From Anaerolineales bacterium (GTDB lineage: Bacteria > Chloroflexota > Anaerolineae > Anaerolineales > Villigracilaceae), in NCBI GenBank assembly GCA_014860745.1, contig JACZJC010000002.1, positions 1-64,000 on the forward strand: DNA of 64,000 bases, in the 5' to 3' direction. Positions 42,791 to 44,227 of the stretch are shown here, piece by piece. Position 1 is the stretch's first letter, and each line of letters opens with the position of its first letter. The translations under genes were made by a program, and so were the position numbers. A model generated the notes under the pieces. The model did not search any database. It had not been told where the DNA came from and saw only the letters and a list, made by a program, of their open reading frames with translations.

Positions 42791-42818
42791 TTGACAAATA
42801 GACGTTTATCTATATAAT
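42791..42818 (+). promoter_or_regulatory. arsR promoter with ArsR operator in the spacer
   Basis: TTGACA (42791-42796) and TATAAT (42813-42818) are separated by 16 bases; both hexamers match consensus. The spacer contains the palindrome ATAGA-CGTTTA-TCTAT (42798-42813). The same palindrome with six-base centre recurs before the Cys-rich peptide gene and before arsM. A repressor bound there would block RNA polymerase; autoregulation by ArsR is expected. Confidence 0.85.
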
Positions 42819-42839
42819 ATCAAATAGAAAGTCATCAAT

Positions 42840-43151
42840 ATGAAATTTAACCCTGTTCTCTTCGCGAAAGCCATTTCCGACGAAACCCGCCAGAAGATCA
42901 TGAACATCTGCTGCTGCGAGTCTCTTTCCGTGAACGAAATCGTAGAAAAGTTGGATGTTTCCCAGCCCACCGTTTCGCATCACCTCGCCATTCTGCGCGA
43001 GGCTGATTTGGTCACCATCCGCGAAGAAGGCAAGCAAACTTTTTACACCCTCAACCAGGAACGTGTTGCATATTGCTGCGGCCAGCTCATGGTCAAATTT
43101 GCGCCTGAGTCTGTTGCAACTGAAAACCTGTTGAAAACCATCAAGGCCTGA
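42840..43151 (+). CDS. arsR: ArsR/SmtB-family metalloregulator
   Basis: A 103-residue repressor with winged helix-turn-helix VNEIVEKLDVSQPTVSHHLA. Cys residues that could bind As(III) form a CCC run (24-26, motif NICCCESLS) and a CC pair (79-80, VAYCCGQ). The usual ELCVCDL motif of ArsR is replaced by the CCC run, a variant of the alpha-3 site. Expected to leave its operators on binding trivalent arsenic. The gene is followed by a terminator, so the downstream genes have their own promoters with matching operators. Confidence 0.9.
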   Translation: MKFNPVLFAKAISDETRQKIMNICCCESLSVNEIVEKLDVSQPTVSHHLAILREADLVTIREEGKQTFYTLNQERVAYCCGQLMVKFAPESVATENLLKTIKA

Positions 43152-43152
43152 T

Positions 43153-43191
43153 CGGGACGCGTCTTCAGCTGGGACGCATCCCGTTTTTTTT
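43153..43191 (+). terminator. Intrinsic terminator after arsR
   Basis: Stem CGGGA-c-GCGTC / GACGC-a-TCCCG (one mismatch), loop TTCAGCTG-like, followed by eight T. Directly after the arsR stop. Confidence 0.85.
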
Positions 43192-43220
43192 GGCAAGTAT
43201 CATAGACAAACTTCTATATG
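43190..43220 (+). promoter_or_regulatory. Promoter/operator of the Cys-rich peptide gene
   Basis: Palindrome ATAGA-CAAACT-TCTAT (43202-43217) matches the arsR operator in arms and spacing. TTGGCA (43190-43195) and TCTATA (43213-43218) with a 17-base spacer form a plausible promoter, although the match is weaker than at arsR. It suggests separate ArsR control of the small gene. Confidence 0.65.
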
Positions 43221-43234
43221 AAAGGAGTAACCCC

Positions 43235-43315
43235 ATGACCGAACTTCCTGTCATCAACAACGATTGTTGCGAAGAAGAATGCTGCGGCGGCAATTGCGAT
43301 CCTGGTTGTTGCTAA
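43235..43315 (+). CDS. 26-residue cysteine-rich peptide in the arsenic regulon
   Basis: A tiny open frame starting MTELPVINN and continuing DCCEEECCGGNCDPGCC to a stop. Seven of the last 16 residues are Cys, in CC-x3-CC-x3-C-x3-CC spacing. AAAGGAG lies 8 bases before the ATG, and the gene has an ArsR-type operator of its own. Cys pairs at this density suggest soft-metal or arsenite binding, like a minimal metallothionein or an arsenic chaperone handing As(III) to ArsM, whose own N-terminus has two CC pairs. Neither role is proven. It is far below normal ORF-calling length and easily missed. Confidence 0.72.
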   Translation: MTELPVINNDCCEEECCGGNCDPGCC

Positions 43316-43385
43316 GCAAGTACGATCTCTGTTCATCGCAAGATGGGCAGAGCGAATTTATCGGAAAAAAAATTTACTCAAATTC

Positions 43386-43406
43386 ATAGACAATCATCTA
43401 TATAAT
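43386..43406 (+). promoter_or_regulatory. arsM promoter region with ArsR operator
   Basis: Palindrome ATAGA-CAATCA-TCTAT (43386-43401) overlaps -10 TATAAT (43401-43406). No good -35 hexamer is visible, so activity may be weak or need another factor. AAGGAG then precedes arsM. Confidence 0.75.
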
Positions 43407-43423
43407 ATAAAAGGAGAAATACA

Positions 43424-44227
43424 ATGACGCAATCCCCCACCCCTATCCATGAGACTGTTCGCGAGCATTATGCCGAGCGGATCAAGAGCAGCGCTTCTTG
43501 CTGCGGATCTGACAACTGCTGCAGTCCCGAAAGCAATCTCTACCCTGCTGATCTTCTCACCACCGTTCCATCTGACGTATCCAGCACCAGCTACGGCTGC
43601 GGCGACCCGATCACCCTTGCCTCTTTGCAACCAGGTCAAACTGTCCTTGATCTCGGCTCCGGCGCAGGACTCGATTGTTTGTTGGCTGCCCAGAAAGTCG
43701 GTCCCGAAGGACGCGTGATCGGCGTGGACATGACTCCCGAAATGATCGAGCGTGCCAAAGACAACGCGAAGCGAGTCAATGCAACGAATGTCGAGTTCCG
43801 CCAGGGCTACCTCGAAGACATTCCCGTTGACAGCAACACCGTCGATGTCGTCATTTCCAACTGCGTGATCAATCTCGCGCCCGATAAAAACAAAGTCTTC
43901 TCTGAGATCATGCGCGTGCTCAAACCCGGGGCAAAACTGGCCGTTTCCGATATCGTCACCACCGATGGGCCGCTGCCCGTAGAAGTGAAGAAAAGCCTGA
44001 GCGCCTGGGCCGGCTGCATCGCCGGTGCATTGGATGTGCGCGAATACAAGTCCATGATGGAAGCAGCCGGGCTGACCGACATAGAGCTTAAACCCCAATA
44101 TTTCGATAAGGCCATGATCGATGACGCCGTCCGCGATATGAAGGACATCCACGAATTGAACCAATATTCGCAGGATGAACTGTATAAAAGCGTGTTCAGC
44201 GCCAAAATCTCGGCTCGAAAAAAATAA
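43424..44227 (+). CDS. arsM: Arsenite S-adenosylmethionine methyltransferase ArsM
   Basis: A 267-residue cytosolic enzyme that methylates As(III) to volatile or less toxic methylarsenicals. SAM motif DLGSGAG (76-82) and GVDMTPEMIERAK. The catalytic cysteines of ArsM are present: C59 (SYGCGDP), C147 (VISNCVINL) and C198 (WAGCIAGA). The N-terminus has two extra CC pairs (26-27 and 32-33), ASCCGSDNCCSPES. Controlled by an ArsR-type operator. No arsenite efflux (arsB/acr3) or reductase (arsC) gene is in the window, so methylation seems to be the main local defence. Confidence 0.94.
   Translation: MTQSPTPIHETVREHYAERIKSSASCCGSDNCCSPESNLYPADLLTTVPSDVSSTSYGCGDPITLASLQPGQTVLDLGSGAGLDCLLAAQKVGPEGRVIGVDMTPEMIERAKDNAKRVNATNVEFRQGYLEDIPVDSNTVDVVISNCVINLAPDKNKVFSEIMRVLKPGAKLAVSDIVTTDGPLPVEVKKSLSAWAGCIAGALDVREYKSMMEAAGLTDIELKPQYFDKAMIDDAVRDMKDIHELNQYSQDELYKSVFSAKISARKK

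Follow-up and report, generated by a model that had tools for sequence, protein, structure and literature searches.

How is a cysteine-dense frame of 26 residues, lying between an arsenic repressor gene and an arsenite methyltransferase gene, expressed, and what could its product do? This is the question raised by the arsenic locus in a stretch of 64,000 nt (the window) from an Anaerolineales bacterium (GTDB family Villigracilaceae; GCA_014860745.1, JACZJC010000002.1 positions 1-64,000). Here arsR, the short frame and arsM each follow an ATAGA-N6-TCTAT palindrome, the predicted ArsR operator. The initial annotation, made from the window's letters, had described three such palindromes with identical arms, a terminator between arsR and the mini-gene, cysteine pairs in the mini-gene together with its own ribosome-binding site and operator, and two CC pairs in the N-terminus of ArsM; all of these are present, at the coordinates given in Table 1. 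Our comparison with related genomes indicates that the frame belongs to a peptide family which probably buffers arsenite (As(III)), and tentatively suggests that the peptide gene and arsM are reached by read-through past bound ArsR.

A seven-cysteine peptide gene and its family

The peptide encoded by the mini-gene (MTELPVINNDCCEEECCGGNCDPGCC) is acidic and has the pattern CC-x3-CC-x3-C-x3-CC. The window contains 2613 short frames (15-60 aa, every start codon counted), of which one besides the peptide contains at least 25% Cys. As a control, the arsR-arsM gap was dinucleotide-shuffled 3000 times; no shuffle produced an equally Cys-dense frame with 7 Cys, the largest number being 6. A longer frame with a TTG start (43190-43315) was rejected, since the operator would fall inside the gene and the conserved start would be missing.

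A scan of the genome collection with ArsM gave 344 relatives, and the best 80 were retained (L034-L113). Detailed analysis covered 64 arsM loci (L034-L097), including three in which arsM has no sequence upstream (L091, L095 and L097), and short Cys-rich frames were searched for in all 80. All of the evidence is comparative sequence from related genomes, many of which are metagenome assemblies. A homologue of 23-29 residues with a Shine-Dalgarno (SD) sequence was found in 25 of the 64 arsM loci; the conserved small frame with Cys pairs for which the initial annotation had advised looking therefore exists. The family alignment starts with MNELPV, followed by four loose residues and then by Cys pairs with D/E/G/N spacers. 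The 25 distinct sequences contain 7 Cys (20 sequences), 6 Cys (3) or 8 Cys (2), and the spacing varies as well as the length. Each consists of 24-30% Cys and has 3-8 acidic residues; K, R and H are absent from 23 of the 25, and W, F, Y, K and R total 4 across all of them. The family thus has the size, the 20-30% Cys and the near-zero aromatic content of metallothionein-like peptides.

In 325 pairs formed from 26 sequences, the median synonymous divergence (pS) is 0.71 and the median nonsynonymous divergence (pN) is 0.23, with pN below pS in 322 pairs. At the conserved Cys columns Cys is retained while the codons TGC and TGT interchange. Because of these two results, the protein sequence, beyond the DNA, is judged to be under purifying selection. 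A chance frame is ruled out by the shuffles, the homologues, the conservation through synonymous change and pN<pS, and on this comparative evidence the frame at 43235-43315 is a real gene of a conserved, unnamed family.

By profile search (E<=0.05), 30 of the 152 genomes in the window's own GTDB family have the peptide. When the order was sampled evenly, 24 of 400 genomes had it (E<=0.001), all from the same GTDB family; a phylum sample gave 9 of 400, of which 8 belong to that family and the ninth is a weak partial match with an internal stop. In these searches no sure member lies outside the window's GTDB family; the profile is not fully sensitive (the L081 and L084 members came from short-frame scanning). 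The short-frame search of the other 16 loci (L098-L113) found no peptide of this kind and one unrelated-looking Cys-rich frame in L105, and a consensus-like peptide had no match in a plasmid collection. Pfam returned no metallothionein match for the 25 peptides (a sub-threshold conotoxin match in 4, nothing else), NCBIfam had no match for four peptides, the window's and three others, and a PDB profile search with the peptide was empty. A search of one open-access library, PubMed Central, found no description of the family.

Internal operators without a recognizable promoter

The exact palindrome occurs only three times in the 4.32-Mb assembly, before arsR, the peptide gene and arsM, while the reversed control pattern occurs 9 times. 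Allowing one mismatch gives 5 matches in the window, a number reached by none of 100 shuffles. We compared exact sites at related loci (52 arsR, 20 peptide, 44 arsM and 6 ArsP operators; arms identical by selection), anchored on the operator and with the -10 placed at op+15. The arsR operators fill the 16-bp spacer of a promoter, and TTGACA is matched 6/6 at 46 of the 52. In contrast, a -35 of at least 5/6 is found at 0 of 20 peptide and 4 of 44 arsM operators, with about 4.5% expected at random. The best promoter score (maximum 12) averages 11.98 at the arsR operators (n=45 retained for the score and T-run comparison; shuffled 8.64), 7.67 at the peptide operators (shuffled 7.65) and 8.00 at the arsM operators (shuffled 7.98). 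For promoters wholly upstream of the operator, the scores are 6.94 for peptide (shuffled 7.35) and 6.95 for arsM (shuffled 7.46). These results show a strong, recognizable sigma70 promoter at the arsR operator and none above background at the internal operators.

The internal operators instead stand in a setting of their own. At 12 of 18 peptide and 32 of 43 arsM sites, the distance from the end of a T-run to the operator is exactly 10 nt, and a T-run of 6-7 is present at 38 of the 44 exact arsM sites, whereas 31 of 45 arsR operators have no T-run. Folding of the DNA 5' of the internal operators is stronger than in shuffles of the same sequence (median fold z -3.1 for peptide and -2.9 for arsM), with z below -2 at 15 of 20 peptide and 33 of 44 arsM operators as against 16 of 52 arsR operators. 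The window's arsR terminator has a folding energy of -18.2 kcal/mol (z -2.5), and 8 U follow it. The hairpins before the internal operators are about as alike in sequence as random (identity 0.32 for peptide, 0.29 for arsM); the 10-nt spacer is loosely conserved in sequence (0.48 and 0.52) and mostly fixed in length. An SD follows 18 of 20 peptide and 41 of 44 arsM operators (at op+20 in 17 of the 20 exact peptide operators) and none of the 52 arsR operators. At the peptide and arsM operators, the sole -10-like hexamer is overlapped or directly followed by the SD, and therefore the SD-bearing mRNA must start upstream. The initial annotation had made the mini-gene a separate transcription unit; this is not supported, given the lack of a sigma70 promoter above the shuffled level and the placement of the SD at the -10-like hexamer.

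A related alternative is that the peptide gene and arsM are ordinary ArsR-repressed units with their own promoters overlapping the operators, in which the T-run acts as an UP element and the -10 lies at the right end of the operator. The fixed distance of the T-run from the operator would suit such promoters, the internal arsM operators keep a TCTATATAA(T/G) extension with TATAAT matched 5-6/6 at 31 of 44, and operator 3 of the window matches TATAAT 6/6. Dedicated promoters for neighbouring ars genes have been described in Thermus thermophilus (PMC5658604). This arrangement is nevertheless somewhat unlikely here: besides the background -35 matches and scores, the peptide operators match TATAAT at 3-4/6 only, and the mRNA would retain little or none of a conserved SD that the arsR operators, with their clear promoter, do not have.

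From these comparisons we infer that the peptide gene and arsM are expressed by ArsR-gated read-through from the arsR promoter, the internal operators being putative roadblocks, predicted repressor sites at which no promoter is recognized and which transcription would have to cross. Our proposal for the gate, which we put forward tentatively and at a little less than even confidence, is a module of T-run, 10 nt, ArsR operator and SD before both genes. Bound ArsR would hold RNA polymerase on the T-run and complete termination, and As(III) would release it, so that one promoter would feed independently gated genes, including a new 7-Cys arsenic-buffering family. Without arsenic, the arsR promoter would be blocked by ArsR on operator 1, and leaked polymerase would be stopped by ArsR on operators 2 and 3, at the T-run 10 nt upstream. 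Binding of As(III) to the cysteines of ArsR (C24-C26, perhaps with C79/C80) would free the operators, polymerase from the single promoter would continue into the peptide gene and arsM, and the peptide would hold free As(III) during methylation by ArsM.

Several points weigh against this gate, in addition to the arsM -10 extension. If the terminators are strong, few polymerases would read through, and an unusual promoter, with the T-run as UP element and a -10 at op+15, could be concealed in the module. Some T-run, at scattered distances, also lies upstream of 14 of the 45 arsR operators; the run before operator 3 of the window is TTT only; and the six ArsP operators are mixed, so that the module is not clear there. 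The locus counts come from related loci and are not independent events.

Gene positions and the role of the peptide

In arsM loci, 22 of the 25 peptide genes lie upstream and three downstream of arsM (L070, L081 and L084), and L141 is a fourth case of the downstream order. A further, less sure downstream candidate in L095 has a TTG start and no SD was seen. Other genes can intervene between the peptide and arsM: flavodoxin-domain and cytochrome c proteins in L044/L147, and a member of the ArsP cluster in L051/L146. In addition, three genomes (G004, G015 and G057; 96, 95 and 95% complete) carry the arsR-operator-peptide unit, with one mismatch in the operator, and no ArsM was found in them, the best methyltransferase matches being 69, 49 and 46 bits (cut-off 263). 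G015 and G057 also have no ArsP_1 or Acr3 at E<=1e-10, and G004 has one ArsP_1; the window's own genome encodes, outside this locus, Acr3 and two ArsP_1 proteins. Because its gene positions vary and it occurs where ArsM was not found, the peptide is, as far as genome comparison shows, a member of the regulon in its own right, and the repressor-peptide pair can stand alone.

The initial annotation had offered two kinds of role, an arsenite-binding or metallothionein-like peptide and a chaperone for ArsM. The first remains the best reading of the sequences, and the second is weakened by the three genomes in which no ArsM was found. As a metallochaperone, the peptide would hand As(III) to ArsM, whose residues 26-33 (CCGSDNCC) contain similar CC pairs, and the predominance of peptide genes upstream of arsM would agree with this. 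Against it stand the genomes with the peptide and no ArsM found, as well as the 39 of 64 ArsM loci without the peptide, and we regard it as improbable. On present comparisons, the peptide is probably neither an ArsM chaperone nor a mere leader peptide, because it also occurs 3' of arsM and in the three genomes just named.

The leader reading is suggested by the frame itself and by what follows it. A common 11-bp hairpin begins 7-13 nt past the peptide stop in 22 aligned peptide-arsM gaps; its CUCUG/CAGAG base hardly varies, and 5 of its 11 pairs show double changes. Cysteine attenuators exist in mycobacteria, and here ribosomes stalled at the Cys codons of a poly-Cys frame ending in CC before its stop would alter the downstream hairpin, so that polymerase reaches arsM. 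However, the non-Cys residues are conserved through synonymous change, so that more than the Cys codons matters, and the gene is not always upstream of the one that it would control. Moreover, in six of the seven loci with the peptide 3' of arsM (L070, L081, L084) or with no ArsM found (L139, L144, L145), other inverted repeats replace the conserved hairpin, the seventh (L141) having Ns at that position. A cysteine-sensing leader is accordingly very doubtful.

The hairpin is lacking in L067. In its common form it stands about 13-20 nt (counted by eye) before the T-run, which sets it apart from a normal terminator. A strict hairpin pattern, which misses most true hairpins, has a single occurrence in the window's own genome and is present in 3 of 41 genomes, each time next to the peptide; the control gave 0. 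The single Rfam match, to a long non-coding RNA and below threshold, was taken as chance. The hairpin could protect the mRNA end or couple translation of the peptide to read-through into arsM. Neither the hairpin nor the restriction of the promoter to the first operator had been part of the initial annotation.

A buffer or chaperone of this kind might also serve another metal (Cu, Zn, Cd or Hg), with arsenic merely a neighbour. Fungal copper metallothioneins share the size and Cys number of the peptide, and two of its genomes (G015 and G057) have no detected ArsM, ArsP_1 or Acr3. On the other side, the same type of ArsR and the same operator are found at arsM and ArsP genes, and vicinal CC pairs recall As(III) sites; we consider another metal unlikely, though less so than the chaperone or the leader. 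Our preferred reading, which we hold to be reasonably probable on comparative grounds, is a stand-alone, metallothionein-like thiol buffer for As(III), and perhaps for methylarsenite or other thiophilic metals, under ArsR and with gated read-through. Three elements of this reading are inferred from the sequences: production of the peptide, its binding of As(III), and the binding of ArsR to the palindromes.

Some results count against the buffer as well. Arsenic as the ligand is drawn from context (arsM and ArsP), and in the genomes where no ArsM was found the ligand could be another metal; a gene could also lie in the missing 4-5% of those genomes. On the arsM tree, which is weakly supported and serves only as a basis for the patchiness of the peptide, parsimony requires at least 14 changes between presence and absence, and well-supported branches force 3 of these. 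Because of this and of the 39 loci without it, the peptide is, by its distribution, dispensable. Apart from this, in a check for the precursor of a ribosomally synthesized and post-translationally modified peptide, the gene maps of 17 loci, in which most neighbours were clustered, not scanned, showed no recognizable modification enzyme.

The repressor and other genes at these loci

The window repressor belongs to the ArsR/SmtB family (PF01022, 55.5 bits, cut-off 22; NF033788, 82.9 bits, cut-off 55). All 22 aligned repressors keep C24-C25-C26 and C80, and most keep C79. The classical As(III) site ELCVCDL, which we take to be a CxC(x2)C motif in the recognition-helix region and whose place in the alignment we likewise assume, is absent from the window protein, which has LSVNEIV there in the 22-sequence alignment. 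Because the CCC and C79-C80 cysteines are kept and the classical site is lacking, the ArsR of this regulon looks like a differently built sensor. The degenerate operator at 42824-42839 had not been noticed in the initial annotation; many relatives have an exact or one-mismatch counterpart near the +26 offset.

Table 1. Features of the arsenic locus, in window coordinates.
Feature	Position (strand)	Details
arsR sigma70 promoter	42791..42818 (+)	TTGACA 42791-42796; 16-bp spacer filled by operator; TATAAT 42813-42818
Operator 1	42798..42813 (+)	promoter-blocking; predicted ArsR site
Degenerate second operator	42824..42839 (+)	1 mismatch; 26 bp past operator 1; ends directly before arsR ATG
arsR	42840..43151 (+)	ArsR/SmtB repressor; C24 C25 C26 and C80 invariant, C79 near-invariant (22 aligned)
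Intrinsic terminator after arsR	43153..43191 (+)	stem 43153-43183; U8 43184-43191; ends 10 nt before operator 2
Operator 2	43202..43217 (+)	internal; no recognizable promoter; proposed roadblock
Shine-Dalgarno of peptide gene	43220..43227 (+)	GAAAGGAG; abuts operator 2
7-Cys peptide gene	43235..43315 (+)	26 residues; stop included
Conserved RNA hairpin	43327..43352 (+)	CUCUG...CAGAG; 11 bp; 11 nt past peptide stop
A8T3 tract	43365..43375 (+)	ends 10 nt before operator 3
Operator 3	43386..43401 (+)	before arsM; TATAAT 43401-43406 without -35; SD AAAAGGAG 43409-43416
arsM	43424..44227 (+)	arsenite S-adenosylmethionine methyltransferase; NF008823 303.4 bits (cut-off 263)

Exact or one-mismatch copies of the operator are also found before ArsP-cluster permeases and, in L147, before a flavodoxin-domain protein (L035:3914, L036:3882, L147:7968 and L147:4739); the L035 permease matches ArsP_1. 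Judged by these predicted sites, the regulon is widened by ArsP-cluster and flavodoxin-domain genes. In L055 (G056), arsM is interrupted by a TAG near codon 14, leaving a frame of 13 codons. Several relatives (e.g. G018:C17, G046:C68 and G044:C297) carry an additional, distant ArsM-like frame containing a single in-frame TGA; these may be ArsM relatives with selenocysteine. The window ArsM also matches the NCBIfam ArsM selenoprotein models, below their cut-offs.

Other small proteins were seen at the same loci. In loci without the 7-Cys peptide (L036:2915-3004, L092:2918-3004 and L087), the slot between operator and arsM holds a different frame, LLTxG...C..CxCK (e.g. MEKGILYLLTNGVSLCGFCKCKRSQGRSK and MTHGILFLLTRGLSLCGICKCKTTRRTK), possibly a second family of Cys peptides. 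Before arsR, behind the first operator, an unnamed protein of roughly 104-123 residues with an ERLCCPFLEF-like motif is encoded in L139:4819-5133 (-), L142:3342-3713 and L072:2068-2391, with short matches also in L046, L052 and L081; two members tested had no Pfam or NCBIfam match. A hydrophobic peptide of 43 residues (MYAEILLIIGIPAILFGLARS...) occupies the operator-arsM slot in L046:2851-2982 and L052, and the L046 peptide has no Pfam match.

Comparison with known systems

With this locus, arsenic detoxification gains an unnamed family of cysteine peptides that tends to escape gene callers through its shortness. The closest arrangement is the cyanobacterial smtB-smtA pair of an ArsR/SmtB repressor and a metallothionein; an ArsR/SmtB-metallothionein locus reportedly exists in Oscillatoria brevis as well. 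In both, the repressor gene adjoins a small Cys-rich peptide gene under its control, and the arsR-peptide pairs of G004, G015 and G057, the minimal repressor-plus-peptide form, take the shape of smtB-smtA. SmtA is about twice as long and has CxC and His ligands, whereas the peptide described here is shorter, has no Pfam metallothionein match, stands in an arsenic setting and has vicinal CC pairs, with internal operators placed after terminators. The fungal copper metallothionein (25 residues, 7 Cys) is similar in length, Cys number and the scarcity of aromatics; the two share no sequence family match, and the peptide differs in its CC pairs and acidic spacers and in being bacterial and ArsR-linked. 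The arsenite metallochaperone ArsD likewise has vicinal Cys pairs in an arsenic operon. However, ArsD is a folded protein of about 120 residues, while the window peptide has 26 and matches no ArsD model.

For the gate, no description of a natural terminator-operator arrangement was found in an open-access PubMed Central search. If our proposal is true, it would be a natural attenuation switch gated by a repressor, with parts known otherwise from engineered biosensors. The possible cooperation of repressor and terminator at a fixed distance would be a natural design useful for arsenic biosensors and would bear on the interplay of roadblock and termination. Repressor roadblocks to RNA polymerase have been reviewed, with ArsR among those named (PMC10310618), and in engineered biosensors an extra binding site acting as a roadblock cuts leakiness (PMC12970293). 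The internal operators would resemble these protein roadblocks in being repressor sites inside a transcribed unit with no recognizable promoter there; they differ in being natural, in being repeated before successive genes and in lying typically 10 nt from a terminator T-run, where bound ArsR is predicted to block.

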